A DNA stretch of 64,000 nt from the NCBI GenBank assembly GCA_036925085.1, contig JAUPFP010000072.1:434001-498000 (forward strand). Reading direction: 5' to 3'. This stretch comes from Brachycybe producta. Its lineage: Eukaryota; Arthropoda; Diplopoda; Playtdesmida; Andrognathidae. The position numbers and the translations under genes were made by a program. Numbering within the stretch: the first letter of the stretch is position 1; each line of letters starts with the position of its first letter. The notes beneath the pieces are model-generated. The model was given only the letters and a program-made list of their open reading frames with translations. It was not told where the DNA came from and made no database searches. This document shows positions 4,452 to 41,249 of the stretch, piece by piece.

Positions 4452-4976
4452 TTATATAAAGAAATGAAACAATACTGCAAAAAATTTGAACATGTAACAT
4501 TTTATTGCATCCGTATTAATAAATGTAACAGTGCTAATGATTAGTAATTGTGGAACCACATGATTAACATTACTCGGAGTGTCGTTAGGTGTTGCGTAGA
4601 CATCCTGCATCGCAGCCCATGATCCATTATCTCGAAGCCACGATGGTGATGACTTGAACACGTATTCACCGATATGCACAGCCGTTGCTTCCTCGAATCC
4701 GGATCTTGCCAGTTGGAGGACGAGTGCGTAAGTCACTATAATTTTACCGAATGATGGTGATCCTTGATAAACTTCGTCCAACAAGAAGGTTAATTCTTGG
4801 TTCAAATCTGAAACAGTTTTTAAAGTTGTTGCTATGGATTCGAAAGCTTGAATATCCTTATTTCGAGCTTGTTTGGCGAGTTTGTAAATTGTTCGTGAAA
4901 AGTTGGAAATCACGGTTTTGTGCGATTGTTTGGCTATATGATACACATCAATGGCAATTTTCGTAAATTCCTGCAT
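4452..4976 (-). CDS. Bcl-2-like apoptosis regulator (viral-type)
   Basis: 174 residues from the ATG at 4976; the frame also extends upstream to a TTG at 5009, but the ATG is preferred. Helix-rich throughout. A BH1-like segment lies at about residues 66-92, with a FGKIIVTYALVLQLA core like the W/F-G-R-I-V pattern. A BH2-like SWLRDNGSWAAMQDVY sits at 112-127, compare W(I/L)..NGGW. The C-terminus from about residue 139 is hydrophobic, as in tail-anchored family members. The NWGR box is changed to SFGK. Family members act at mitochondrial or ER membranes and control cell death. A minus-strand AATAAA lies at about 4499, inside the last codons. The ORF is intact in spite of decay around it. It is inside the virus-like element, so acquisition by a virus is likely, but no similarity search supports this yet. 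Confidence 0.6.
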   Translation of the reverse strand: MQEFTKIAIDVYHIAKQSHKTVISNFSRTIYKLAKQARNKDIQAFESIATTLKTVSDLNQELTFLLDEVYQGSPSFGKIIVTYALVLQLARSGFEEATAVHIGEYVFKSSPSWLRDNGSWAAMQDVYATPNDTPSNVNHVVPQLLIISTVTFINTDAIKCYMFKFFAVLFHFFI

Positions 4977-5044
4977 GTTGAACACCTTATTTGTAAAAGC
5001 TAAGCACAACTAACATTAAAAAGTATAAAAGTGGTTGGCCTTCA

Positions 5045-5611
<567 letters not shown>

Positions 5612-6297
5612 TGTGAGCTTTTGACATCAACCAACATTTTATTACCAACCTTTAGATGACATTTTCTACTTTTCGTTTCTTCTCTGAGCAGTATGACAAC
5701 TGCACAGAGAAGATCCGAGCTGTAGAGAGAGCTGGATGGAGATAGATTGTAGTCACTCTTCTGCATGGGGGTGAAATCGTTGCAGGAGAGTGGCGGCCAT
5801 CTCTCTCTCTTCCGGTTGATGCTGATATACATCTTCTCCATCGGTATTCCGACCAGAGAAGATGTTGTAGCTGCTGAGAATCGTATAGCTCCTGCCCTAT
5901 GAAACCTCCGGCCTCTGAAGAGAAGTTATTTACATAGACATAAAGACAACGCTACTTCTTGTTACAACACTTTTATTCATTCCTTGTAAGAAGTACAGAT
6001 ACAAGGGTGAATAGTAAAATACTAACGGTGAATCCTCAGGCCCATGATTTGGAATTTATCTCAAAAACAGGCAAAGGAAAGAACTACTTAACAAAGAGGA
6101 ACATGGTCCTTTTATACCTTGGACCTGTGTACACCTGCGAGGTGTAACCAGGTCCAAGTGACCATGGTCCTTTATGTATCAATCCGCCGCTTGGGCATGA
6201 GTCAGAAAGGTGAGTCAGAGAGGAGGGAGGGACGGTTGAGAGTTGTTTACCCCCCAGGCTATGGCTTTGGCGGGATCACGATTTACAGGGTGTTACA
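5612..6297 (-). repeat. 3' LTR
   Basis: 686 bp, TGTGAGC...GTGTTACA on the plus strand. Compared with the other LTR I count four substitutions (around 5700, 5768-5769 and 5782) and no indel. Read on the minus strand it has a TATAAAAG box (6109-6116) and an AATAAA near the downstream end. Confidence 0.93.
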
Positions 6298-6315
6298 TAC
6301 CCTCCAACCTTGCTT
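6298..6315 (-). other. Polypurine tract candidate
   Basis: Immediately upstream of the 3' LTR on the minus strand the sequence reads AAGGTTGGAGGGTA before TGTAACA. It is moderately purine-rich and correctly placed for plus-strand priming. It is imperfect, so only a candidate. Confidence 0.4.
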
Positions 6316-6700
6316 GGAGTACGTCCTCGTACTCCAGCCAAGGGTGGAAGGTTTTCAAATTACGCAGCGGGGAGACATGGGTGGCTGAGGACTTACCGTG
6401 TACAAAGGTGGTTATGGAAAGGCACTGGCACTGAAGTGTCAGCGCCCTAGAAAAGTGAAAAAGGCTGAAAACATAAAAAGATAATCAATGCTCGCTGAGT
6501 GGCGAGCCGCTATTGAAATCTAAAAAGAAAAGAACAGTTGCAACGTATTTTATTTTTTTATAAATTTTTCGATACTGCCACCCGGATGGGTGGCAACCAC
6601 ATGAGTACATGTGGTGCGCAGCTATCCCTGCTGCGGAGGGTGGGGAGGATCCTGGGTCCATGAACCGTACGGGGGGGGGGTAATCCCGCCGGACCTGGCC
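6316..6700. other. Non-coding 3' region of the LTR element
   Basis: Contains a short stem (TTGGAGTACG/CGTACTCCA near 6313-6336) and a G-run at 6670. It lies downstream of the accessory ORF stop. No gene seen. Confidence 0.5.
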
Positions 6701-8470
6701 TCATCGGTAGCTGGATGCGGCAGACAGCCATTGTCCCTGGTCGTCAGGTAGATCCCGGTGGAAGATATTGAAGATGTCCCGGTCCCCGATAATCTTACGG
6801 GAGGACCGCTTGTTGTACAGTGTAGCCCAAGCGGCGTCCCATAAGATGGCGATTCGGTAACGAGGATCCGGTTCCGGAATGTAGTGACGACTGGTGCGGA
6901 ACGTCTGTCCAGCTGGCAGTCCAAAGACGGAGTTGACGAAAGCTCCCAAAAGGGCTTCCGTGGCTTCATCGATGGCATCTCCGGCGAAACTGATGGTTTC
7001 AACAATCCGTCTTCTTGGGAAGACGATGGTGACGAGGACACTTGTTAGGCGGGAGAGTCCCACGACATATCGCTCCCGGGGAGGGAGGTCCAGACGGGGA
7101 AACCCTTCCTCCAAAGAGAAGTGTCCTACGTAGAGGGTATTGGCAGAGCGCACTTCGCGCTGCCAAGTGACCCACCGATTGTTGAGCAACCTCTCGCCGG
7201 AGGTGGCTGCACGGAACGAATGATCCAGCGGTAACCGCCCCAGAGTAGCCCCGGCATGGGGTACAGTGGGCGGTGCGGCTGGTCGGGCTGGTGTTGGAGC
7301 CGCAGGTTCCAGAGAAACTGATGCGCCTGCGATAGGCCTGGCATGGCGCAAGGCGGACCGGGCCATATCGCGGGCCCGCTGACGTAGTCGCTTCGATGCT
7401 GACTTCCTGCTCAGCGCCTCCAGTGGCTTGGCACTTCCTGGTGCACGGCCCAGTGCTTCCATGGGGTCACCTCCCTGTTGCATGACGTCTTGCAGAAGGT
7501 TTGTGATGGCCTTCTGTTTTTTCAAGAACGTGGCACGCTCGGCGGAAGGTGGCGGCATCAAAGGTGTAGGCGTAGGTCGTCCAGAAGGGCGGCCCGGAGG
7601 TGGCGGAGGAGGAGAGCGATGCGGGACCCGAGTGGGAGGGCCCCGAGTTTCGCAGCGACGGTCGCGGTCCAGTTGGACACGGAGATCCTGTAGATCTTGC
7701 CTGGCCCTTGGGTCGAAGTTACCACGCGGCGGAAGGCCGCGTCCAGAGGAACCACGTTGTTCCTGCTGACTTCTTCCGTCGGGTCGGCGTCGGGGCGAAA
7801 GATGGGAACCACGTGGCGAAGAGCGACGTGGCTGTGGCCGTTGAAGAGAGTCTCGAGAAGAGTGGTGGCCCCTGTAGGACTGTTGAGGCTCCTTGGGGCG
7901 AGCCCCAGTGGGAACCTGAACACGAACAGGTTGGGGAACCACCACTATGGAAGGTAACTTTGGAGTCGGAGTTGGTGTGGCGGCCTTGCTGCGTGGAGGC
8001 GTGGCACATCGGGAGGTTGGTGGTGATGATATCGGTGTATGAGTAGGAGGTAGCGGGGAGATAGACGGCACCGGCGAGTGGTGTCGGAACGGCTTCGGTG
8101 GCGTTACAGATGGGGAAGGAGACGCAGAGAGGCTAGTCGACAAGGTTGCTGGCGAGTTCGAGGGTGGAGGCGATGGCGTAGTTGGTGGTGGAGTCGGTGC
8201 TGTCTCTCGGAGTCAGGCCTCGATTTGTAGGAGCTCCTCTTTTGGGAGTTGCGCCGTACAAGGCAGACCCAGCTCGGCGAGGCGGATGCAGACTGCACGG
8301 AGATACGCCAAGTTGTCCTCCCCTTCCTTCTTGTCCTTGGCTGCCTGACGAAGAGCAGCCTCCCTTTGCAGCTCCAAGTGGAGGTTTTCGAGAGGGGAAG
8401 GCACAGATCCACCTCCCCCACGCTTCCCTCTGGCTTCAGCTCCACCTGGGATGGTTGGTCAGGCACGAGG
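6701..8470 (-). CDS. Accessory ORF of LTR element, main segment (unknown function)
   Basis: One minus-strand frame is open from about 8470 to 6701 except for a single TGA at 8213-8215. The upstream part has a glycine-rich linker and then a helix-forming LENLHLELQREAALRQAAKD region. After the TGA come about 250 residues very rich in Pro, Arg and Ser (including PPPPPPG), then a ~200-residue better-ordered C-terminal part with TWQREVRSANTLYVGHFSLE and RYVVGLSRLTSVLVTIVFPRRR, ending ...SSYR. No signal peptide or membrane segment, so not envelope-like. No RT, RNase H or integrase motif. Composition suggests a nucleic-acid-binding or structural role. The TGA is followed by C, a leaky context. The 8143 upstream edge is not an ATG. 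Coding is supported by length, composition and recent age. Confidence 0.5.
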
Positions 8471-8877
8471 TTACCGCGGAATGCCTGGTTAACCCCCCAT
8501 GCCATTGTATTAATATCGATGCGGTCTTCCCGCTCCTCCCAGTAGTGTTTTGATGTCGTGACGTCGAAGGGGACGATGCTGCTTGGAGCAGCAGGTTTCC
8601 CTTCGCGCCCGACATTGGCAGGTCGCTTGAAGCTTGCTTTTAGGCGCTTCTCCCCACGCCGGTGAAAATTCTCCGGTTCGGAGGAGGTGCGGCGCCTATC
8701 TATTGTGTTTGGCGACTCTCTTCTTGTTATTGGCGCACTGGCGGCGCCCGCCTTCTGTAGCTGGCAGGTAGATTGAGAGAGGGGTTCAGCGGTCCCCGCC
8801 GTTCCACTCTCCGTCTCTTCTTCACTAGAAGAGGCAGACATCATCCTGCCTCCTCTCCATGAGCCTGTACCTGGCAT
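8104..8877 (-). CDS. Accessory ORF of LTR element, N-terminal segment
   Basis: ATG at 8877. The first ~150 residues (to about 8415) look genuine: a Ser/Glu-rich start (SASSSEEETESGTAG), a basic middle and a DINTMAWGVNQAFRGNL segment. Beyond about 8415 this frame becomes a shadow, while the helical LENLHLELQ region continues in another frame. The two parts are probably joined by a frameshift, programmed or mutational, in the G-rich overlap at roughly 8410-8470. The first 150 residues resemble no family I know. Confidence 0.45.
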   Translation of the reverse strand: MPGTGSWRGGRMMSASSSEEETESGTAGTAEPLSQSTCQLQKAGAASAPITRRESPNTIDRRRTSSEPENFHRRGEKRLKASFKRPANVGREGKPAAPSSIVPFDVTTSKHYWEEREDRIDINTMAWGVNQAFRGNLVPDQPSQVELKPEGSVGEVDLCLPLSKTSTWSCKGRLLFVRQPRTRRKGRTTWRISVQSASASPSWVCLVRRNSQKRSSYKSRPDSERQHRLHHQLRHRLHPRTRQQPCRLASLRLLPHL

Positions 8878-10398
8878 ATTTCTTAAGAGTTTGGAAGTTC
8901 TTACTTTTTCAAAAGTCCCGCTGCTGGTGATTACTTCTAAATAATAACAGAAATCGGTCCCCGATCACTCTGTTATTATTTCAAGAGGTCCAAAGAGTTC
9001 TGAAGGCCTGATGCACTGCACGTGAGTTCAAAGGCTTGAAGGTGGCACTCAAGCTTTTGATTAACAACAAAAACTGATGAAGTCCGAAATTAGAATTTGG
9101 AACTTGGCACAAAAAGGACTTGAAGATTTGAAGAACCGAAGGTGAATATAATTGAGATGACAGGATGAATAAAACGAGTGCTTCTTTGAAGAGAGCCAAT
9201 TGAATGGTAATTGACCAGGTTTGGTCACTTAGATATATTTCTTATTTAATTTTTTTTAAAGAAGTTAGAAGGGCCGGCCCCTTTTAGAATAAGACACCTT
9301 ACTCTAATTGGTCTCTTCACGACTTTTATTTATTGGGGGTGGGGGTTGTCCCACCGATATTGGATGTGAGAGGTGTTGATCTAATTCTTATCAGAGTCGG
9401 TCCTGTTTATTATTTTTAGATAAACAAAAGGACTAAGGAATCTCGAGGGAGAAGGGCCGTTATTTTATTTCACAACGAGGTGTGAAGTTGCCCATTAACT
9501 TTCTCCCCTTCTTTTCCTTAATGCCTTTTTGAAAAGAATAGGTCAGCAAGGTTACTAATGTACCTTGCTGTTTGTTGTTATTTTTAGGGGGAGTGGGACA
9601 GGAGTTGGTGTCCCACAAATTCAATCTTAATTGAGAGGGTGACAGGTTCTTCAGTTTTTTATTTTTTTTTTTTTAATTGAAGGTGCCCGCTCTCACAAAA
9701 TCTTCAAAACTGATTTTCTTCCTTTTTTTTTATTTGTTTATGGCCAGCAGTTTTTCGTTGTTTGTTTTTTTTTTCTTTGAAGTCCCAGTGCATTGGTCTG
9801 GCCCCCAGAGCAATTGTCTCTTTGAAGTTTTCTATCCTTCTACTGTCAACAGCATGGTCAATGACGTCCGTCCATAATAAAGGGGAGCACGGTGTTTTCC
9901 TTTTGCTGACCCTTTTATGGCTCTTGATTTTTCTTCTGAACGTCCTTGACTGGCCTTCGGCGTTTTTCTCAGGTGTACCACGTGGTTGACAGTTGTTTGT
10001 GAAGGCCACGTGGTTCCGGTGTAGTTTATTGCATGTTTGAAATGGTTGCCAATATGTAAATATTGGTGGCTATTTTGAAAAGTTTAGAAGTGTTTCAAAA
10101 ATTAAAGTTGTGTGAATTTTGTAGAGTTTTGGGAGTTATTTGAGAGTGTTTAGAGGGGTTGTTGATGCTGTGGGGTTGTTTATTCGTTGGGGGGTTCCTT
10201 TTATCCCCTCCCCCACCTCTTGACAACTGTCCTCAGTTGTTTCTTAACACAACATCTCAAATTCCTCCCGCTCTTCTATTGTTGATATTTGATTGTTGGT
10301 GTTTATTTCCATAGTCATGAAATAAACACTGGTGAATTATTGTTCTATTTCTGTCGCGTTTGGTTTCTTGACCGCGTGGGTGGCCGTTGCTTTCGTCG
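8878..10398. other. 1.5-kb region where RT/IN would be expected; no pol domain
   Basis: Between the retropepsin and the accessory ORF. I searched both strands by eye for a YxDD box, RNase H or HHCC/DDE motifs and saw none. The sequence is T-rich with CACGTGG motifs (around 9988 and 10008) and has one small basic ORF on the minus strand (10009-9704, 101 residues, Lys/Arg-rich) of doubtful reality. It is probably an untranslated spacer or remodelled sequence. Confidence 0.6.
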
Positions 10399-10968
10399 TC
10401 ACTCACGGGGTGGAGTTTCGAGGTTTTCCTTAGAGGTGCTGGCAGATTTGCCAAGGGCCTCTACGGAAGTTTTTCCCAGAGCCCATCCGATGTGTGCTTC
10501 GATGCATTTTTGTCGGAGTGTGGACTCGAAGAGGTCGTCCTCCACGTATACTTTATTTGTTGTCATGGACACAGCTAAGTGCAGAGCCCGGCCTAGATCT
10601 CGGCCTAAGATGGCTTCGTGCCGGCCGGTAATCACTAGTAAGTGCCCTCGCACAGCGTGGGGGCCCAGCTGGACCGTCGCGGCGAGTCGCCCCACCACGG
10701 TGATCCGTTGGCCTCCCACACCCTGAATGTTGGGTGGGATTAACACAGGCTCGATTTCGAACTTGTGTTCCTGCGCGAGTTCAATGGTGATAACGCTGCC
10801 CGTAGCTCCGGTGTCCGCGAGCATTCGTATACTCTTCCCGTTGATCGTGACGGCGATGCATGGGTTCTTGTCGCTGGCATCATAGTCTCCAACTTCTTGC
10901 GGTGAACAGCTGCTTACCAGCTGCTCATACACCGTTGTCATTAGTCTTCGGCAGCAGGAGTGGCCCAT
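10399..10968 (-). CDS. Retropepsin (aspartic protease) of LTR element
   Basis: 189 residues from the ATG at 10968. The catalytic motif LADTGATGS has Asp at about residue 52. The second conserved block AILGRD is at about 119-124, the usual spacing for a retropepsin monomer that acts as a homodimer. It would cleave Gag and the other products. It overlaps the NC frame by about 40 nt and is one base forward of it (+1), so expression may need a +1 (or -2) ribosomal shift, or separate initiation. The ~65 residues after AILGRD show no RT start. The frame stops at 10399. Confidence 0.82.
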   Translation of the reverse strand: MGHSCCRRLMTTVYEQLVSSCSPQEVGDYDASDKNPCIAVTINGKSIRMLADTGATGSVITIELAQEHKFEIEPVLIPPNIQGVGGQRITVVGRLAATVQLGPHAVRGHLLVITGRHEAILGRDLGRALHLAVSMTTNKVYVEDDLFESTLRQKCIEAHIGWALGKTSVEALGKSASTSKENLETPPRE

Positions 10969-11467
10969 TCGTCGGCGATTGGGTTCCGGGGGCCATGATG
11001 GCTATTGTTTTATTTTCACGGCACCCAATCTCCTTGACGGATTGTTTAAGGACGTCGAGCATGTCCTGCCAAACGATTAGCTCGTCCGGGGTCCATTTAT
11101 GTGCAGGAGCCCGGTCGAGCACCTTGACTGGTATATCCTCAGAGTCGTCAGAGCTGTCGTTGTCGGGTTTATCAGGAGTAGGTGTTCCGGTGGCTGGGTC
11201 TGCTGCTGGAAGAGGAATCCGGCGGATTTGTCCCGCCACTCGTATTAGAGCAAACTCAATGCCGTCTTCGGTGATGATATCCGTTTCAGGCACCTCTCCT
11301 TTGATGTCATAGTCGGTAACCGGCTCCCCAAACTGCTTGATTGCAACCTTCTTCTTTGGTTGCCGACACTCACGGACGAAATGCCCCAATTTGCCACAAT
11401 TATAACACGTCGACTTACTCTTGTCGAACGTGCGAGTGGTCTCTGGTTGGGGGTCCGCCGCAGAGTG
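10925..11467 (-). CDS. Nucleocapsid-like extension of gag after in-frame TGA
   Basis: This continues the gag frame directly beyond the TGA at 11468-11470. A CCHC zinc knuckle CYNCGKLGHFVREC lies at 11407-11366, followed by an acidic linker (DKPDNDSSDDSEDI). The frame ends at 10925 inside the start of the protease. The zinc knuckle normally binds RNA during packaging. Its position behind a stop means it is made only by readthrough, or that the stop is a recent mutation. Confidence 0.7.
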   Translation of the reverse strand, partial: HSAADPQPETTRTFDKSKSTCYNCGKLGHFVRECRQPKKKVAIKQFGEPVTDYDIKGEVPETDIITEDGIEFALIRVAGQIRRIPLPAADPATGTPTPDKPDNDSSDDSEDIPVKVLDRAPAHKWTPDELIVWQDMLDVLKQSVKEIGCRENKTIAIMAPGTQSPTNGPLLLPKTNDNGV

Positions 11468-12781
11468 TCAGTATGAATTGGTGGCAGCAGTCTGACTAGG
11501 CTTTTTATCGTGCCTAGACCGGTGTGTTTTGTCTTTAGGGCTGGCGGCTGCCGCCGGCTCCTGGTCGGTCTTCGATGCTCCTTTACCCGACTGTGAATCA
11601 GCTGCGGGTTTTGGTTCCGTCGGCCATTTATCCAAGGACAGCAAGACCACCTCCATATTGAGGATGGCGTTCGCGAAGTCCTTGAACGACGTCGTAGATG
11701 CGTGGTGCGCGGCGTTCTGTATGGTGGGATGTAGAGCGCGGCGCAACTGACTTATACGCAGCTGGTCATCAAGTTGTGGGTAAACTCGGTCGCCGAGTAT
11801 CATAAACTCCCAGATGAAAGCTTGTGTACTCTCACCTTCCTTCTGGAGCATCTCTGTATACTTCTTCTCCAAGATGGCCAGTTCGTTCGGCTTCCCGAAC
11901 GTATCTACCATCTGTACTCTCAGTGCTGGCCAAGAAATGTCCTGAAGCTCATACCTCAGTTTACTCAGCCACGTGCGGGCGGCCCCAGTGAAACACCCCG
12001 TGATGTATTCCTCCTTGTGGTGGTCTTTCCAACCGTACAGGTGTGCCACTTCCTCGAATTCTTCCAGGAAGGGACGGAAACCTGTCAATCCGTTGAATTT
12101 TTGGATTGAGTCGGCAGGGTGGCGACCGCTGTATTTCTTATTAAACTCTTCCACGGAGGGTCCTCTGGGGGTTGGTCGATAGATGCCATCCCGGACGTTT
12201 GGCATTCCAGCCGGCATCAGACCTACCCTTTGCGGTGGAAAACGTGGCGCGTAAACTGAAGTGCCTTGTGTCGCTCCTTGGTGAGGCTGTTGTTCCGGGG
12301 GTGCCGAGCGGCGACCGCTACGTGCAACCCGGACAAGCGAGTGAGGAGAATCAGCACGTGTCGTAATCGGTATTTCCGCACGCTCATCTCTGTGACGCGG
12401 ATCATCTGACTGCTCTTGTTGTTGCCAGTCAGGGTTACGCGGTAGATGACGTGTGTGCGGTGTGTAATGTTTTTCGTAACGATCGTGGCGCTCTCTGTAG
12501 CCAACATAGGGAGCTGAAGAGGCGTCCGAGTCATCGTCGCGAAGTCGGTGTGTGCGTGTTGTCCGCCGTGGTGTAGTCGGTCGATTCGGTGTGAATCGGT
12601 CGTCTATGAGCTGAGACATACGAGTCGAGAGTGCAGCCACTTGTTGTGACAGGTGGTCAAACTCGGCCCCAGTCGGCCACGGCGGTGGTGTCACATCAGT
12701 AGTCACGGGTACTTCCAACAGATCTTCGTGTGAACCCTGGTGATCAGACAGGGACCCCGTATTGTCGTGTGAGGTAGCCAT
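11468..12781 (-). CDS. gag: Gag polyprotein (retrotransposon gag domain)
   Basis: 437 residues from the ATG at 12781. The N-terminal ~200 residues are polar and low in complexity, rich in Arg, His and Ser. From about residue 215 on there is a recognisable retrotransposon Gag capsid region: FRPFLEEFEEVAHLYGW, a TGAARTWLSKL block, FGKPNELAILEKKYTEMLQ and AFIWEFMILGDRVYPQL. These match the capsid-type domain of Ty3/Gypsy Gag. The C-terminus is Lys/Ser-rich and ends in a TGA followed by C; the zinc knuckle comes after this stop in the same frame. Gag assembles the particle and packages RNA. Confidence 0.85.
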   Translation of the reverse strand: MATSHDNTGSLSDHQGSHEDLLEVPVTTDVTPPPWPTGAEFDHLSQQVAALSTRMSQLIDDRFTPNRPTTPRRTTRTHRLRDDDSDASSAPYVGYRERHDRYEKHYTPHTRHLPRNPDWQQQEQSDDPRHRDERAEIPITTRADSPHSLVRVARSGRRSAPPEQQPHQGATQGTSVYAPRFPPQRVGLMPAGMPNVRDGIYRPTPRGPSVEEFNKKYSGRHPADSIQKFNGLTGFRPFLEEFEEVAHLYGWKDHHKEEYITGCFTGAARTWLSKLRYELQDISWPALRVQMVDTFGKPNELAILEKKYTEMLQKEGESTQAFIWEFMILGDRVYPQLDDQLRISQLRRALHPTIQNAAHHASTTSFKDFANAILNMEVVLLSLDKWPTEPKPAADSQSGKGASKTDQEPAAAASPKDKTHRSRHDKKPSQTAATNSY

Positions 12782-14756
12782 GATTAATGATGTGGCTTGT
12801 GTAATGTGAATGTGCGGTGATGAACGAGTCCGGCGAAGTCCAAGTCGTTGTGTGCAGCTCCGAGGGTTCTCGAGTACACTCTGAGCTATACTTTTCGGTT
12901 CCAGTATGATGGGACTCGTTCAGTTTGTAGGTCGGTGTTGTTACTGTGCGTCGGTAATTTAGTGCTTGTCAGCAACCGACACTATCATACTCTTATACAC
13001 TGAGTAACGATAGATTACCTAAGCTTGTGACGTGTATAACGAAGTGGCCGTTCACTCCGTTAGTGTGGTGATGGTTGTATCGTATTGATCGTGTTCTCAG
13101 TTGGGCGTGTGACGAGTTTTGGTTCCCAACTGGTGTAGCGTCGTGAGTTCTCTATTGAGTGTCAGATTTTAGAAGGATCTCTCGACACGCGGTATTTGGC
13201 GACCACGTGGAGGTTACGAGAATTCCAAAAAGTCTCAATAGAGAAACAGCAGATGTACAATACAATCCCGAGCGTGGTACACCACCCAATCGAAATTGCA
13301 CTGCGGAAAGTGAATTAGAAATGAAAGTGTATTGCAACTGCCTGAAGAAGAGGCAAGCAATACGAAGAGTAAAGCTAGAGCGCGGTGCCCGCACTTTTAG
13401 TTTTACTTGGAAACAAGAATCAAGAGTGTGTGTGTAAAGAACACACAAAGAACAAAAAGTTCAAGATGGCTGAACTTTTTAAAGAAGAACAAACAAAGGA
13501 GAAGTTCAAGATGGCTGAACTTTCCTGAAAGCAAGAGAAGAAAGCTGTTTTACTTGGAGAGTTTAAAACTTAGGTGCGGTGCCCGCACATCAAAAGTTTT
13601 AATTTAGTTTTATTAAAAAAGTAAAACAGTGTTGAAATGGAAGTGTGTTCAACAAGCTAAATGCTTGGTGAACCAGAAGAAATGTTCAGATTGTAGAAAT
13701 TTTGAGTCCTCACTGCTGGATGGCTCTGGATGAAAAAGACAGAGTCAGTGCCCAGTGAGGGACTATGTTGAGTAGAATGAAGAAGTCCGTAGGTGGCGCA
13801 GTGGTGGCCACTTCCGGTCAGTTTATTGCAATGTCCAAAAATTGATGATTGAAAAGTTCCTCCGGGGCACGTTTTTATGGTGGCCAGGAGAAAGACACAA
13901 AAAGAGAGAAAATCTAAAGAAAAAGAGAAATTTTCTCTAACAAGAGAAACTCCACCAGGGGGCGCGTGCGTGCAACCCTCTGGAAGAGAAGAAAAGAGAA
14001 GAAAACACAAAAAGATGAGAGAAGGTACAACAATGAGTCACATGGAGCGAAAAACCGCTCCGTTGGCGCTTTTTGAAGAGTGTCCGGCCGATCCAAAATG
14101 GCGGCCGGGCTTCTTTGCTGTCCAATGGAGAAAGTTCATGTGATGATGCATTGAGGTGATGATGATGAAGAAACTGAAGAACATGACTTGGGGCTTAGAG
14201 GGTCCCAAGGGAAACACAAGTGTAAAAAAACAAAGAACAAAGAAAAGGGGGGACAAGAAAGTCCCACGTGGCTAGGAAAAGTGTGTTCTAAGCTTGTAAG
14301 CCCCCTAACAATGAAATAGAGTTAGGGAGAATCTTGCTTGAAAATTAAAGATGAAGAGTGAAGATAATAGGACATTTTAAAAGACACACACGTCCTTTAA
14401 AAGCCTATTAATAGGTGAATAGATTAGTAGATGAGATTTGTTTGCTCATCTCATAATGAGACTGCAAACTCCTCTCGGAGAGTAAGAAGAATTTGTTTAA
14501 AGTGTTGCCCACGTGGTGTGGGTTTTACTTTGAAAATTAGAGAAGAGTGAAGGTGACAGTGGGTGATTGTAATGGAAACATAAAATACAAAAACACGGAC
14601 GGAAACACGTGTGTCCAAACGGTTGTCCACGTTTCCGAGTGCTAAGCGGTCAGCAGACAAAAGTTCGTTCCCACGTGTCTCTAAGGACAGGAGACAGAAT
14701 CGCGCGGTCGACACGTGGTGTGTGTAGCCACAAGTCTCTTCCGCGATTCCACAAAA
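12782..14756. other. Long non-coding leader of the LTR element
   Basis: Nearly 2 kb between the leader repeats and the gag ATG, unusually long for an LTR element. It contains a repeated CAAGATGGCTGAACTTT motif (about 13462 and 13507), a repeated GGTGCCCGCACnT box (about 13384 and 13577), and CACGTGG motifs near 13203, 14264 and 14509. Short ORFs (for example around 13159-13437) show no domains. Packaging or translation signals would lie here; none can be proven by eye. Confidence 0.5.
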
Positions 14757-15117
14757 AACGGTGCCATGCGGTTGGCTTTGACGTGATCGAGGGCCTCCAT
14801 ACATGGTCCCAACATAAAAAGGCGCCACGCGGTTGGCTTTGACGTGATCGAGGGCCTCCATACGTGGTTCCAACACAAAGGACGCCGTGCGGTTGGCTTT
14901 GACGTGATCGAGGGCCTCCATACGCGGTTTTACAAACGGCGCCACGTGGTCGACTTTGACGTGATCGAGGGTCTCCACACGTGGTTCCAACACAAAGGAC
15001 GCCGCGCGGTTGACTTTGACGTGATCGAGGGTCTCCATACGCGGTTTTACAGACAGGCGCCACGCGGTTGACTTTGACGCTATCGAGGGTCTCCATACGT
15101 GGTTCCAACATAGAAAG
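14757..15117 (-). repeat. Six-unit ~60-bp leader tandem repeat
   Basis: Six units start near 14762, 14823, 14884, 14939, 15001 and 15057. Each has a GACGTGATCGAGGG core (GACGCTATCGAGGG in the last) followed by CTCCA.AC, and an ACGCGG/ACGTGG box. Unit lengths alternate between about 61 and 55 bp and the spacer endings alternate (GTTCCAACACAAAGG versus GTTTTACAnAC), so the array has a two-unit higher-order pattern. It lies just inside the 5' LTR. Minus-strand frames through it read as a repeated VEPRME.LDHVK peptide, likely incidental. Confidence 0.85.
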
Positions 15118-15201
15118 GACGGACGAAGCCTCGTGAGGCACAATCACGAGACTTAGGACAAAGGACGGCTTCTGTTTACAGGTCGGAGAAGGCAGATGGA
15201 G

Positions 15202-15222
15202 CAATACCCCGCACCTCCACCA
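15202..15222 (-). other. Primer binding site, tRNA-Ala type
   Basis: Two bases inside the 5' LTR the plus strand reads CAATACCCCGCACCTCCACCA, which resembles the 3' end of a eukaryotic tRNA-Ala including CCA. The minus strand therefore has TGGTGGAGGTGCGGGG, the expected primer binding site. The tRNA match is from memory of tRNA-Ala acceptor/T-arm sequences. Confidence 0.7.
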
Positions 15223-15224
15223 AA

Positions 15225-15910
15225 TGTGAGCTTTTGACATCAACCAACATTTTATTACCAACCTTTAGATGACATTTTCTACTTTTCGTTTCTTCTCTGA
15301 GCAGTATGACACCTGCACAGAGAAGATCCGAGCTGTAGAGAGAGCTGGATGGAGATAGATTGTAGTCACTCTTCTGCATTAGGGTGAAATCGATGCAGGA
15401 GAGTGGCGGCCATCTCTCTCTCTTCCGGTTGATGCTGATATACATCTTCTCCATCGGTATTCCGACCAGAGAAGATGTTGTAGCTGCTGAGAATCGTATA
15501 GCTCCTGCCCTATGAAACCTCCGGCCTCTGAAGAGAAGTTATTTACATAGACATAAAGACAACGCTACTTCTTGTTACAACACTTTTATTCATTCCTTGT
15601 AAGAAGTACAGATACAAGGGTGAATAGTAAAATACTAACGGTGAATCCTCAGGCCCATGATTTGGAATTTATCTCAAAAACAGGCAAAGGAAAGAACTAC
15701 TTAACAAAGAGGAACATGGTCCTTTTATACCTTGGACCTGTGTACACCTGCGAGGTGTAACCAGGTCCAAGTGACCATGGTCCTTTATGTATCAATCCGC
15801 CGCTTGGGCATGAGTCAGAAAGGTGAGTCAGAGAGGAGGGAGGGACGGTTGAGAGTTGTTTACCCCCCAGGCTATGGCTTTGGCGGGATCACGATTTACA
15901 GGGTGTTACA
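15225..15910 (-). repeat. 5' LTR with promoter and poly(A) signals
   Basis: 686 bp; the same sequence as 5612-6297 apart from about four substitutions. On the minus strand, TATAAAAG lies at 15729-15722 and AATAAA at 15256-15251 close to the LTR end, giving a plausible U3-R-U5 layout. A second AATAAAAG occurs around 15589. The LTR is followed at 15911 by the (TA)n remnant of the insertion target. Confidence 0.93.
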
Positions 15911-36329: not shown

Positions 36330-37434
36330 TTAGTGTTGACCAATACTATTAATCCAATCAATTGCAGATTTGCTGTCTGTATTAACTAGAACTGGTAAAT
36401 TTACAAACTTTCTCATATCTAGCTCTGCCAGAAAACTAGTAACCCATTTAATTTCTTTTACTTCTTCACAAATAGCAATTAGCTCTGCCTCACATGTGGA
36501 CAATGCCACAATCTTTGTTTTTGAGTCTTCCAGCTAACCAATGCATTCCCCAATTTAACTGTGTAGCCAGAAGAAGATTTTGCATCTTTTGTACTACACC
36601 AACTAGCATCAGTGCTAGCCTCTACCTGACTTTTAGTTATATCATAATTAAATTTATATTCCTTTGTTCCTTGTAGGTATCTATATATCCTTTTCACTGC
36701 AGTTAAATGGATCTGTTTGGGGTTCTGATTATATTGAGATAGTTGACTAACATTAAATGTAATGTCTGGTCTTGTCCCTACTGACAGATACATTAGGGGC
36801 CCCATCATTTCTTGATATTCCCTTTGATCTACTGCAATAGAACCCTGGCTTTCATCTAAATTTTGGTTTGGGTCTCCAGGTGTTTTCTTTAGATTACACT
36901 CTGCTAGCCCAAATCTTTTTAAAATTTTCTCAACATATTTTCTTTGAGACAACTCAAATCTCTTCTGTGTTTCATGAATGTCCATCCCAAGAAAAGTATT
37001 GGATCCATTTGTTTCAGTGATTTCAAACTTATCTATCACACCCTCCATTATTTCAGTAATAATATTATTGCTACTTCCAGCTACCAATAGGTCATCTACA
37101 TATACTCCCATAAAAAATATTTCACCTTCCCTCTTATATTTGTATACACAGGGGTCACTTTCCAGTCTTTCTAACTTAAGACTTGTTAGGATTTTATTTA
37201 ATTTTTCATTCCAACATCTACCTTATTGTGGAAGTCCATATACGCTTTTCTGTAGCTCACAAACCTTTCCCTCGTTCTCTTCTTTGATACTGCCCTCTGG
37301 TGGCTCCATATATAGTTTTTCCTTTAGTTCCCCATAAAGGTAGGTTGTTTTCACGTCATACTGCCTAACTTTCAACTGTAACTGAGATGCCAATGCAACC
37401 AGAATGCGAAGAGACTCTAGTTTCATCACTGGTG
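36330..37434 (-). pseudogene. pol: Copia RT (palm/thumb) and RNase H
   Basis: The first part (37429-37223) has the QYDVKTTYLYGELKEKLYME and SVYGLPQ blocks. After a stop, 37111-36479 has the catalytic YVDDLLVAG motif, TRPDITFNVSQLSQY and the RNase H start ASTDASWCSTKDAKSSSGY. Near 36490 the frame shifts and a degenerate STCEAELIA-type RNase H end lies beyond. RT would copy RNA to DNA; broken here. Confidence 0.88.
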
Positions 37435-38397
37435 CAAATGATGTCTCGTATTTGAATTTGAATTTGAAAAATTACTCTGCAAGCAGCCATAAAGGCCTAT
37501 GGCAGAGGGACAAGAGTCCAAGTGCAGCATAGAAAATGCATTGTCAAAACCAGAAAATATAAAACCCTATTGATATAAACCCAACAACAATTTCAATATT
37601 TTTTTAATGCTGCAAATATATGCATTGTCAAAACAAAACAAAATTATGACTCCCATAAAATACGTTTTCCTGCACAAAATCCCCAGCAAGCGAGTTCCAT
37701 TGTCAAATCGCCCTAGGGACAAATGACCAGTAATAAGAATCTGTTCGTGCAAAAATTTCTCCAACTTTGTTAGAGTGGCCACCCCTACCCAAATATAATG
37801 CCCTGCAAAGTTTACTTGAAGTAGGTATAGGGCAAGAGCCTTCTAGCATTCGATTAAAGATATTAAGACTAAAATCTGAACGTCTTGCAAGTAAACTGTC
37901 CCAACCAAGCTCTGAAAGCATTTTAGTTACACTGTCGGCATATCCATATTTACCACAAACAAACCTAGCAGCCCTGCATTGGACCATTTCTATAGAGTGA
38001 GCTAAGTCTTCAGTGTGGGGATTCCACACGGAGCTGCAGTATTCTAGATGGGGACGTACTTATGATTGATATGCTATACATTTTACCTCCCTGGGACACC
38101 TTCTTAGAACGCGTTGACTAAACCTAAGCATCTGCATAGACTTGAAAATAATCTGTTCAACATGCAGCTTCCAAGAAAGCTTAGCTGTAATCATTACCCC
38201 CAAATATTTATAAAAATCTACGTTATTAAGTGGAATGGCCCCTATTCTATATGGAAATATTATTGGATTCCTTCCCGTAGCTACCCTCATTACACAACAT
38301 TTTCCCTTATTAAGTTGAAGTTGCCATTTAGAACACCATGCCTCTATTGCTTTCAAGTCACTATCAATAATATGGCAATCATTGTCAGAAGTAGTCG
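37435..38397 (-). pseudogene. LINE 3' fragment inserted in copia RT
   Basis: A ~960-bp non-LTR fragment in the same orientation splits the copia RT frame. ORF2 C-terminal blocks: WCSKWQLQLNKGKC, YKYLGVMITAKLSWK, KCIAYQS (38356-38060), then VWNPHTEDLAHSIEMVQ-type and RRSDFSLNIFNRML (38029-37703), in at least two frames. Ends in the family 3' sequence and a CAAATTCAAATTC tail. 5'-truncated, as usual. Jockey/CR1-like by motif. Confidence 0.85.
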
Positions 38398-39760
38398 TAG
38401 TTGATTCCTGGTCTTTGGCTACATCCCACTGCTACTAATCTTGCCTTTCTCTTGTAGATTGTGCCATCTGGGTTCTCTTTTATATCATAAACCCACTTGC
38501 TCCTAATTACCTTCACGTCTTTAGTTCTAGGAACTAATCTCCACACTTCATGTGATGAGATTGGAGTTCTTTGCCCATTGCATCTTTCCAATCTTCAGCA
38601 TATGGCGAATGCAATGCCTCTTCATAATTTCCTGGGATTATTGTTTCCCCTTCTATCGATACATTTGCCTGATGGTTTACCTTTAATCGATCTGATCGTC
38701 TGGCACCCTGGGCTGCTAGTCGTTCCTCCCGTTCTAACATTTCTATTTGATGCCTACCTCTTACCAGTTCATTTGTAACTCCCTGTTTTCTCCCAGGCCT
38801 CTGAGCTTGGCCCTGTTCTTCTACAGCTTGATTAGGGTTTGACTCGTTAAATTGATTATTTATTTCTGGTGGCCCAGCTTCATCTTCAAATTCTCCCTCA
38901 TTATGGATTTCATAATTTAACTTACTAGTTTCTAAATTCCCTAAAATTCTTTTTCCTAATAAAGTAGCTCTCATCTTGTGCTCATCAAATTTTACCGATC
39001 TTGTCTCATGAACTCGGTCCTCATCTGGGTTGTACACCCTGTATGCAATTCGTTTTTGGGAATACCCAACAAAAATTCCCTTATTTGCCTTTGGCTCTAG
39101 TTTGTTCCTCTTTTCTTTTGGGATATAGTAATAGGCTATACTTCCAAAGACATGTAGGTGAGCAACTCTAAGAACCTTCCCATTCCACCTTTCAAGTGGA
39201 GTCTTGTTACTATCCTTTGTTGGGGTACAGTTTTTAAGATATGCAGCTGTGGAAATAGCTTCAGCCCAGAACTCAAGTGGGAGTTCTGCATCTATCAAAA
39301 TGGCTCTAGCTTTGTCCAACAATATTCTGTTGGCCCTTTCTACCACCCCATTGCTCTGGGGTGAGTATGGCACAGTTCTTTGATGTTGGATGTCCTCATT
39401 AATAAAATGGTTTTCCAAATTTTTATTTACAAACTCCATTCCATTATCTGACCTAACACTTAATTTTTGTACCTAATGCATTCTCATGTAATTTCTTGAA
39501 CTCTACAAAATGTTCAAAAGCCTCACTTTAATTTAAGAAAATATACAAAGATTCTGCAACTATAATTGTCCACAAGAACAAATATATACTTTGCCCCACC
39601 TAGGGATTCTTTGGGCATGGGTCCACAAAGATCAATATGTATTAGTTCTAAGGGTCTACTGGCCAATCCCAAATTGCTACCCTTAAAAGGTGTTTGAACC
39701 ATTTTTCCCTAATATACTAGGTTCACATGTTCCAAGTTTTTCATGCTTAAAAGATAAACC
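38385..39760 (-). pseudogene. pol: Copia integrase C-terminal region and RT start
   Basis: 39439-38534 has VPYSPQSNGVVERANRILLD (integrase catalytic Glu region), LPLEFWAEAISTAAYLKNC, HVFGSIAYYYIPKEKR and FVGYSQKRIAYRVYNP, all typical copia integrase/linker blocks. 38591-38385 has the RT opening VPRTKDVKVIRSKWVYDIK and KARLVAVGCSQRPGINYDYF, cut by the LINE. 39440-39760 is the degraded integrase core. Confidence 0.88.
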
Positions 39761-40163
39761 TTTTACCATCTTGCTTTGCTCCAGTTTGTCCATGTAATCC
39801 TCTCCAAGGTGTCCAAGTTTCTTGTGCCATAACTGCTTTTCATGGCTCCTTTGGAATCCTAGATTTTTATTTAAAGGTACACAATTTCCCAAATTTGCTG
39901 TCATGCACTCTTTTGTTAAATGTGAATTATTACATTGTATTTTGGTAGCTAATACAAACATTCTGTTTTTCTCTAGCTTCACCAATGAGTTCCCCATTTT
40001 GATTTATGATTTTTGCCCTCTTTTGATCAAAAATGATTTGGTTCCCTTTACTTATTAAACTTCTAACCGACAATAAATTTGTTCTTAACTTAGGTACATA
40101 AAGAACATCTTTTATACAAATGTTCTTTTCTTGTCCATCAAGAAGTTTGGTGGTGACTTTCAC
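39683..40163 (-). pseudogene. pol: Copia protease end and GAG-pre-integrase
   Basis: KDVLYVPKLRTNLLSVRSL (post-protease block) and LWHKKLGHLGEDYMDKL (the H..LGH zinc-binding start of integrase) are in different frames, implying a frameshift at about 39940-39997. A single stop separates this from the gag-protease ORF at 40191. Confidence 0.85.
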
Positions 40164-40190
40164 ATTACCCCTTGCTTCAGCCTTGATAGA

Positions 40191-41249
40191 TCAACCCTCC
40201 TCAGCCAGGTTAACTTCATTCTCTAGAGGTTGAACTTCCTCCATCCAGTCAACCTTTGGTGACATGTGTACAGTGCATCCAGAATCCAAAGTCCAGAAGT
40301 CCGTCTTGTAGTTGCCTTCAACCTGATTGCATTTTTCATCTATCTGCTCTGCCGTGTTCCAGGCATGTTCTGTATTTGTCCTTGCTTCATTTGCTGTTTG
40401 TCTTCCCTGTCCAGTACCTTGAAATGTTGGTATACCTCGTCCACGTCCTCTTTCAATTCTAGATCTATTCTCAGAATGTTCAGTATTGTGTCTGTGCCAG
40501 CAATCTTTTGATAAATGGCCCAGCTTTCTACACACAAAGCATTTACTCCTTGGGTTTTGTCTTCTTTGTCCTCCTCTTCCTGTTTTAGCCCTGAATGCCT
40601 TTTCTGTATTTTGGTGGCCCATCTGATTTGACCCTCTTGGAGTCAATCTAAGCTCCTCCTCCTTTAGGGCTTGTTGAATGTGTTCAATAGTAGCATCTCT
40701 TTGAGGCCTTAAAACTGATGCTACTCCCTCCATTCTATGATGTAGGCCTCTTACAATATGATACACTAACTCACAGGTTGGTATAACCTGGCCTAGGGCA
40801 GCACTCCGTGTTGCAATACTCCTAGCCCGGGTTAGGTAACAATCAACAGTCTCATTGTTCCCCATTAGAATGTTTTTTAATTCTAAAGCAGTATCAATTC
40901 GCTGATCTTTCACATTCCCAGTATGGTTAAGTTTTAATTGTTCCCACAGTCTTTGCTCTTCTTTCCCCAATAAAAAGGCCTGCTTGTTCTTCAGATAGTG
41001 TACATACGATTATGCCGAATGCTTCATCATTTTTCTCCTCCCATGCTGCTCTGATGATCCTGGTTCTCTATTGTTTGTTGGCTCTGAGTACTCAACGACT
41101 GGCTTGTACAATTTTCTTGTTCTCAAGATGGTGCTTATTTTCAGCTCCCAAATTGGATAGTTGTCCCCTGTCAGGAGGTCAACCCTACTTAGTGATATTG
41201 TGTTTGATGACGCCATTTCGTTGAAAAAGTTCCAGGTTGTTAGTCCCAA
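40191..41249 (-). pseudogene. gag: Copia gag and protease
   Basis: The N-terminal part (41249-41010) has the LLTGDNYPIWELKISTIL block typical of copia Gag. A frameshift near 40990 leads to the 259-residue ORF 40970-40191: gag helices, CCHC knuckle CFVCRKLGHLSKDC (residues 144-157) and the protease motif WTLDSGCTVHMS (Asp at 229). Ends at a stop at 40191 in the frame that then continues. Confidence 0.9.

Follow-up and report, generated by a model that had tools for sequence, protein, structure and literature searches.

Capsid-bearing and polymerase-bearing LTR retrotransposons with common ends in the millipede Brachycybe producta: a probable two-component element

In this study, we analysed a stretch of 64,000 nucleotides (nt) from the millipede Brachycybe producta (GenBank assembly GCA_036925085.1, contig JAUPFP010000072.1; C72:434001-498000 in our numbering), which is called the window throughout and contains a long terminal repeat (LTR) retrotransposon with genes for a capsid protein and a protease and with no gene for reverse transcriptase (RT) or integrase (IN). 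The assembly searched for relatives comprises 295 Mb in 442 contigs. Elements with the layout of the window element are called class A. In the same genome, class B elements carry protease (PR), RT, RNase H (RH) and IN genes between the same ends, and class C elements have gag and pol in one frame. We consider it probable that the window element is one half of a two-component, i.e. bipartite, LTR retrotransposon of the Ty3/gypsy type.

The window element and class A

The element lies on the minus strand between paired LTRs (5612-6297 and 15225-15910) with 4 differences in 686 positions. Read in the sense direction, the 5′ LTR is followed by the bases TT and a primer binding site (PBS)-like sequence, TGGTGGAGGTGCGGGG, then by a leader of ~2.4 kb, gag (12781-11468), a zinc knuckle, the protease gene (10968-10399), an A-rich non-coding stretch of 1.5 kb, an accessory region (8877-6701), a polypurine edge and the 3′ LTR. 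The gag frame matches Pfam Retrotrans_gag (E 2.4e-9), the protease frame matches Asp_protease_2 (E 8.7e-14) and RVP (E 2e-9), and the CCHC knuckle reads CYNCGKLGHFVREC (about 11407-11366). A Pfam scan of the two accessory frames detected neither RT nor IN between protease and 3′ LTR, and RT, RH and IN of class B painted onto other copies of class A layout gave no match. The first-pass annotation of the window had described a very young LTR element with primer site, gag capsid region, CCHC knuckle and D-T-G protease and with no RT or IN, all of which our searches bear out. It had also taken 6701-8877 for a single accessory frame; a coding region is present there, but it consists of two overlapping frames (8877-8104 and 8143-6701), neither of which belongs to a Pfam family.

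In the window copy, an in-frame stop parts gag from the knuckle, and the protease is in another frame than the knuckle. Other class A copies, e.g. on contig C98, have gag, knuckle and protease open as a single frame of 839 amino acids (aa). Since these copies are open where the window copy is broken, the damage concerns this copy and not the class A family. Readthrough or frameshifting as the normal way of expressing knuckle and protease was rejected for the family, because a single 839-aa frame contains the gag in 54 of 96 copies; a further 29 lie in a 629-aa frame and 13 in other frames, with 846 aa as the maximum.

Class A is a large family with recent activity: the gag search, for which the best 96 of 2525 candidates were scored, yielded at least 96 copies, all 97-100% identical to the window gag. 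Many copies of the same layout had been named as support in the first-pass annotation. In the LTR search (best 40 of 2016 candidates scored), 42 matches at 97-100% were obtained. Nine more elements, each with paired LTRs, were read piece by piece and, together with the window element, comprise five class A elements (contigs C72, C98, C26, C17, and C11) and five class B elements (C2, C1, C42, C20, and C12). The LTR pairs of these ten elements differ at 1-5 of about 686 positions, and clean 4-bp target duplications were found in all nine copies other than that of the window, in both classes. The window element sits at the end of a long (TA)n-type microsatellite (4916-5611), and because of this insertion into (AT)n its own target duplication is ambiguous and not decisive. 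Painting of 17 more LTR-adjoining stretches added five class A and four class B elements and one old class A remnant (locus L059), while seven stretches had no internal region of either class.

Ratios of nonsynonymous to synonymous change (pN/pS), calculated from five class A copies, were 0.33 for gag, 0.64 for the knuckle and linker, 0.38 for the protease, 0.72 for the accessory frame of 480 aa and 0.40 for its 225 C-terminal codons, and thus below 1, the result that the first-pass annotation had named as support in the case of the accessory frame. In a protein collection, no relative of gag was found among 6148 candidates, and a match to ARC among sequences of the PDB had an E of 0.51.

Class B and the shared ends

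Class B and class A have three parts in common, namely the LTR, the tail at 6214-6530 and the leader as far as window position 12966. In class B, a long frame for PR, RT, RH and IN lies between these ends and is followed by an accessory frame. A Pfam scan of one copy matched RVT_1, RT_RNaseH, Integrase_H2C2, rve and a protease in the order PR-RT-RH-IN, and detected no Retrotrans_gag. The long frame is open at 1594 aa in three of five copies (C2, C20, and C12), and 69 of the 123 top rows of the RT search (best 150 of 2756 candidates scored) lie in frames of 1550-1600 aa. In class B, pN/pS was 0.53 for the 5′ part of the frame, 0.28 for RT-RH-IN and 0.60 for the accessory frame. Among 120 matches listed, the proteins closest to RT-RH-IN of class B belong to Ty3/gypsy-type elements (36-45% identity), and the named ones are mostly from arachnids (Cordylochernes, spiders, ticks) with one from a fish and one from a frog. 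Some of these Ty3/gypsy-type elements of arachnids and other animals, unlike class B, have gag and pol in one protein (Pfam Retrotrans_gag, e.g. P0006).

No hidden capsid was found in class B by three approaches, namely Pfam (the one copy scanned), tblastn with class A gag on five copies, which gave nothing below E 6, and a profile of class A and class C capsids on four loci of three copies, which gave a best E of 1 as compared with 1.5e-141 on class A. Gag with a capsid was found in classes A and C and, by these methods, was undetected in class B. The N-terminal region of class B has an insecure likeness to the N-terminus of class A gag (phmmer E about 0.002 with high bias), and blastp with class A gag gave nothing below E 0.4. 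The gene content of the two classes is thus reciprocal: both gene sets together occur in none of the elements examined (10 of class A, among which L049 has lost gag and protease as well, and 9 of class B), and none of the 96 gags has one of the 150 scored RT matches downstream in the same element. Seven gag-RT pairs at distances of 10-18 kb (133 of the 150 RT rows compared) are neighbours or nested insertions. LTRs, primer site, polypurine edge and short target duplication, which are features of Metaviridae, are all present in the window family; the order PR-RT-RH-IN within one element is present in class B and absent from class A, which has no RT-RH-IN.

The coding parts of the two classes are old paralogues, as their proteases are 53% identical over 180 residues and the C-terminal parts of their accessory proteins 37-38% identical over about 210-220 residues. 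The LTRs, on the other hand, form one pool, with mean distances among the ten elements of 0.67% within class A (40 pairs), 0.82% within class B (40 pairs) and 0.73% between A and B (100 pairs). Along the first 1750 nt of the leader, compared in seven intervals of 250 nt for ten copies of class A, one of which was covered by less than half, and nine of class B, the divergence between A and B never exceeds the larger within-class value; in the following intervals it is 7% and 23%. On the 3′ side, successive 80-nt intervals counted from the LTR show A-B divergences of 1.9, 8.6, 28, 40, and 56% (10 A and 8 B copies), homogenisation on this side being limited to the final ~80 nt. A and B are intermingled in a tree of the first 1750 nt, with 8 label changes (mean after shuffling 6.6), at least five of which are forced by well-supported branches, and a test in the same quick tree of class A as one clade gave an approximately unbiased (AU) p of 2.3e-88 against it. 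In the last 259 columns of the leader, A is split from B with a support of 100. Exchange between A and B is thus confined to the cis-acting ends, and template switching between co-packaged A and B RNAs would be its natural route.

The old class A remnant L059, whose accessory region is about 72% and whose LTR is about 75% alike to the young ones, extends this comparison to an older generation. Among the 40 best matches to its tail and LTR, eight lie beside an old class A accessory region, four beside an old class B accessory region or RT, and none beside both, with a chance expectation of about 0.01 for each class; 28 older class B accessory rows, 17 RT rows and 41 of the 77 rows of a further listing were entered into this test. 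LTR sharing between A and B is accordingly more than a single recent event, an older LTR generation being shared too. As a control, a class C-type LTR (from locus L061) was treated in the same way, using 18 of 40 class C copy rows and 31 of the 77 rows of the further listing. Four of its 40 matches lie beside a class C accessory region and none beside the class A or B accessory rows entered. After all gag and RT rows had been added, a class A gag was found on the opposite strand at 7 kb from one C-type LTR, and a class B RT lay 7 kb downstream of another, which, given the layout of class B, is past the position of that element's own 5′ LTR. We place both cases as neighbours rather than as parts of one element.

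Two compound loci were also observed. At L048 (C60:200600-210500), the 3′ end of a class A element, one LTR and a class B element form an A-B tandem sharing the LTR, with a class A gag at C60:194983. On contig C71 (L045, L046), a class B element in opposite orientation abuts a class A element at the latter's 3′ LTR, apparently as a nested insertion.

A probable two-component retrotransposon and its alternatives

The window element had been proposed in the first-pass annotation to be a parasite with gag, protease and accessory gene that borrows a polymerase. Recent mobility and the need to borrow a polymerase stand, but, as far as found, one-sided parasitism on a complete element does not apply, because no capsid can be recognised in the class that has the same LTRs and would donate the polymerase. 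Copies with RT and IN, named there as evidence that would speak against the proposal, exist in form only, as elements with the same LTRs carry RT and IN but no gag was detected in them. Class A and class B probably travel as a pair, since A makes shells without copying enzymes, B makes enzymes without a recognisable shell, and both have the same ends. With somewhat less confidence, we also favour the stronger form of this explanation, in which the retrotransposon is obligately bipartite and its capsid and polymerase segments integrate separately, spread together and have kept their ends alike through at least two LTR generations.

In such a system, class A would provide Gag (capsid and zinc knuckle), protease and accessory protein, and its Gag would build the particle. 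Class B would provide protease, RT, RNase H, integrase and a homologous accessory protein, without a recognisable capsid or knuckle, and its Pol would be drawn into the class A particle, perhaps through the N-terminal part of ~300 aa or the linker-protease region. Both RNAs would carry the same LTRs, primer site, polypurine edge and proximal leader, the latter presumably with the packaging signal, and would be packaged together; RT and integrase of class B would copy and insert both. Template switching between the co-packaged RNAs would keep the ends alike and the coding parts apart. The sequences directly show both layouts and their abundance, the lack of the missing genes in the copies examined, ends that are shared and exchanged, purifying selection, 4-bp target duplications in both classes and a gag-pol relative with another LTR. 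From them, we infer protein complementation, co-packaging and mutual dependence of A and B.

A complete relative must be considered here. Ten RT matches 86% identical to class B lie in frames of 2287 aa, and a gag piece from one of these class C elements has identities with class A gag of 58% (225 columns) and 63-64% (capsid); because a gag at 58-64% to class A sits in 2287-aa frames with RT, a complete relative exists. A search with class C gag found 23 copies at 99-100%, 22 of them in frames of 2052-2287 aa (ten of 2287 aa) and one in a frame of 1048 aa. The frame of the copy read has a shortened accessory part at its end (45% identity to class A over 64 residues). The LTR of this one copy, of which about 357 bases, and nothing of the leader, were seen, begins with TGTGACACCC; over 264 columns, its likeness to the LTR and edge of A and B is about 61%. 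As the likeness is only this high, class C is a related but separate family by its LTR, and class C as a donor of LTRs to A and B was rejected on the LTR of the copy read. Twelve copies with class C gag at 99-100% (C1:7714067, C34:2070992, C78:114546, and others) lie in frames of 2052-2097 aa and have their RT outside the 150 best matches to class B RT; the same class C gag may be joined to two different types of pol.

Several findings weigh against a bipartite system. A full gag-pol family, class C, is present in the same genome with an RT 86% identical to that of B and a gag 58-64% identical to that of A, its polypurine edge and first LTR bases resemble those of A and B, and it could help class A, class B or both. 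Not every class A copy contributes, because subtypes without protease (L052 and L053) or without gag and protease (L049) exist and 29 of 96 gag frames have 629 aa; L053 is the only painted copy of the 629-aa type, and L052 lies outside the 96 scored gags. Only the best candidates were scored (96 gag, 150 RT, and 40 LTR), and a complete element with the A/B LTR, if rare, could have escaped the searches. The pN/pS values come from five copies per class with few changes, e.g. for gag 52 nonsynonymous and 50 synonymous ones over 10 non-independent pairs. Among the matches to the old LTR, 28 of 40 are unassigned to A or B. A CCHC pattern occurs in four of five class B copies, though in the leader, where the window element has one too. 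Finally, one class B RT (C11:3206537-3207244) lies inside an open frame of 5498 aa; 120 bases sampled upstream (L065) are ordinary sequence and not N.

Among the other explanations, the one that fares best, and which we still regard as unlikely, is that A and B are both satellites of an autonomous class C that supplies Gag and Pol, their shared ends stemming only from one class having taken over those of the other by recombination. Class C is indeed intact and young, with 10 copies having the 2287-aa frame and 12 having frames of 2052-2097 aa and with gag pieces 99-100% alike, and its polypurine edge and the start of its LTR are alike to those of A and B. Against this, the likeness between the class C LTR read and the LTR and edge of A and B is only about 61%, 0 of 40 matches to the C-type LTR lie beside the A or B accessory rows entered, and satellites of this kind would not need purifying selection on gag (0.33) and on RT-IN (0.28). 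Slightly less credible is one-sided parasitism, in which B is complete in practice through the Gag of class C or of another element and A is a parasite with ends taken over from class B. The RT of B is 86% identical to that of C while the gag of A is only 58-64% identical to that of C, and the class C Gag might thus still accept class B Pol; but A and B have swapped LTR and leader often and for a long time, which was not seen with C, and class C Gag would have to package class B RNA without having the class C LTR in common (the class C leader was not seen). That A and B are mere fossils, immobile now and with ends made similar by genomic gene conversion among insertions, is highly improbable in spite of the broken frames of the window copy and the A-B tandem sharing one LTR on C60, given LTR pairs only 1-5 of about 686 positions apart, target duplications in 9/9 other paired copies and dozens of long open frames in both classes.

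If the bipartite explanation holds, the A/B pair would represent a natural split genome in an integrating retroelement, with both partners abundant and young and with ends homogenised by recombination. The origin and cohesion of segmented genomes would become testable with it, as would the way in which Pol enters a particle when it is unfused to the capsid. The homogenised tract, i.e. the last ~100 nt, the LTR and the first ~1.75 kb of the leader, would then bracket the packaging signal.

Related systems and further features of the locus

In most descriptions, a non-autonomous LTR element is a parasite of a complete one; here, neither partner is complete. The gag-deficient element BARE-2 reportedly lives on the Gag of BARE-1, a complete donor, which makes the dependence one-way. 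In the millipede, by contrast, none of the 96 scored copies of class A, which bears Gag, has RT in the same element, although class C might help. TR-GAG elements are said to be LTR elements with gag only and with no protease or other genes; class A falls outside this definition, as it also has protease and accessory genes and a polymerase-bearing partner without gag. In the SNARE and SARE elements of soybean, an autonomous and a non-autonomous partner are said to swap LTRs. The LTR exchange between A and B is alike, whereas neither A nor B is autonomous.

Plant pararetroviruses have neither LTRs nor integrase. The closest precedent found is the rice pararetrovirus pair ePVCVL and ePVCVL2, of which one has the coat protein and the other RT/RH without coat protein; both keep a protease, which is strongly different between them, and recombination exchanges their intergenic regulatory regions, which are 99.3% alike (Chen et al. 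2017, PMC5491270). This pair is known from endogenous segments from which the genomes were reconstructed (PMC5491270). A and B show two marks of such a complementary pair, namely reciprocal absence of capsid and RT, and near-identical cis regions with recombination. The millipede pair differs in consisting of integrase-bearing LTR retrotransposons with dozens of full-length open copies per half. The same logic seems to apply in both cases. Non-autonomous Athila families lack pol, keep gag (and env) under purifying selection and recombine between families; all potentially autonomous, pol-bearing Athila elements also have gag, so that there is no reciprocal split (Marco and Marin 2008, PMC2410132). 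A literature search, with most subscription journals outside it, returned no description of a split LTR retrotransposon pair, only PMC5491270 being close.

The accessory protein has no recognised family within the collections searched: the profile search suggested in the first-pass annotation matched no Pfam family, the best match among PDB sequences had an E of 0.16, and no relative was found among 7995 scored candidates of the protein collection. AlphaFold2 modelled the C-terminal part of the window accessory protein with a predicted local distance difference test (pLDDT) score of 37. A private capture of a host gene by this copy only, which had been named as a possible objection, was rejected because class B has a homologue and the class C copy a shortened version. 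The accessory protein is kept in both halves and is related to a C-terminal extension of the class C polyprotein.

Table 1. Features of the class A element in the window (positions in the 64,000-nt stretch)
Feature	Position	Strand	Remarks
3′ LTR, 686 bp, TGTAAC...CTCACA	5612..6297	-	one pool with class B LTRs
Polypurine-tract-like edge AAGGTTGGAGGGTA beside 3′ LTR	6298..6311	-	identical in ten A and B copies save one position variable in both classes; similar in class C
3′ tail homogenised between A and B	6298..6400 (6400 is an approximate edge)	-	from A-B divergence in intervals
Accessory frame, larger part, 480 aa	6701..8143	-	C-terminal ~220 aa homologous to class B accessory
Accessory frame, N-terminal part, 257 aa, other frame	8104..8877	-	a single longer frame spans parts of both in some other class A copies
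A-rich non-coding stretch in the place expected for RT-RH-IN	8878..10398	-	in class A, not in class B loci
Aspartic protease (DTG)	10399..10968	-	Pfam; 53% identical to class B protease
Nucleocapsid and linker frame, from first start codon	10925..11389	-	CCHC knuckle at about 11407-11366
gag, 437 aa, capsid domain	11468..12781	-	Pfam match at residues 260-351
Class-specific part of leader	12782..13474	-	A-B divergence 7% then 23% in successive 250-nt intervals
Leader common to class B, homogenised	13475..15224	-	~60-bp tandem repeats at 14742-15103
PBS-like sequence TGGTGGAGGTGCGGGGTA	15205..15222	-	identical in 8/10 A and B copies; the other two, both class B, have one difference each
5′ LTR	15225..15910	-	from LTR pairing

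No Rfam match was obtained within the window. An open reading frame adjoining the insertion (4452-5009, minus strand) has a weak match to Bcl-2 (Pfam E 0.0031, 18.5 bits; cut-off 31.4). A degenerate copia-type element with separate frames lies at 36479-40970 (minus strand), with matches to RVT_2 and SH3_retrovirus and with copia gag and zinc-knuckle matches below threshold. Within the non-coding stretch of the class A element, a TATA-like sequence, GATAAAAGG, is located near 10205 (minus strand) and is kept in eight of nine other class A copies examined, the ninth being without that part; GATAAAAGG could, as a candidate only, be the driver of the accessory gene.

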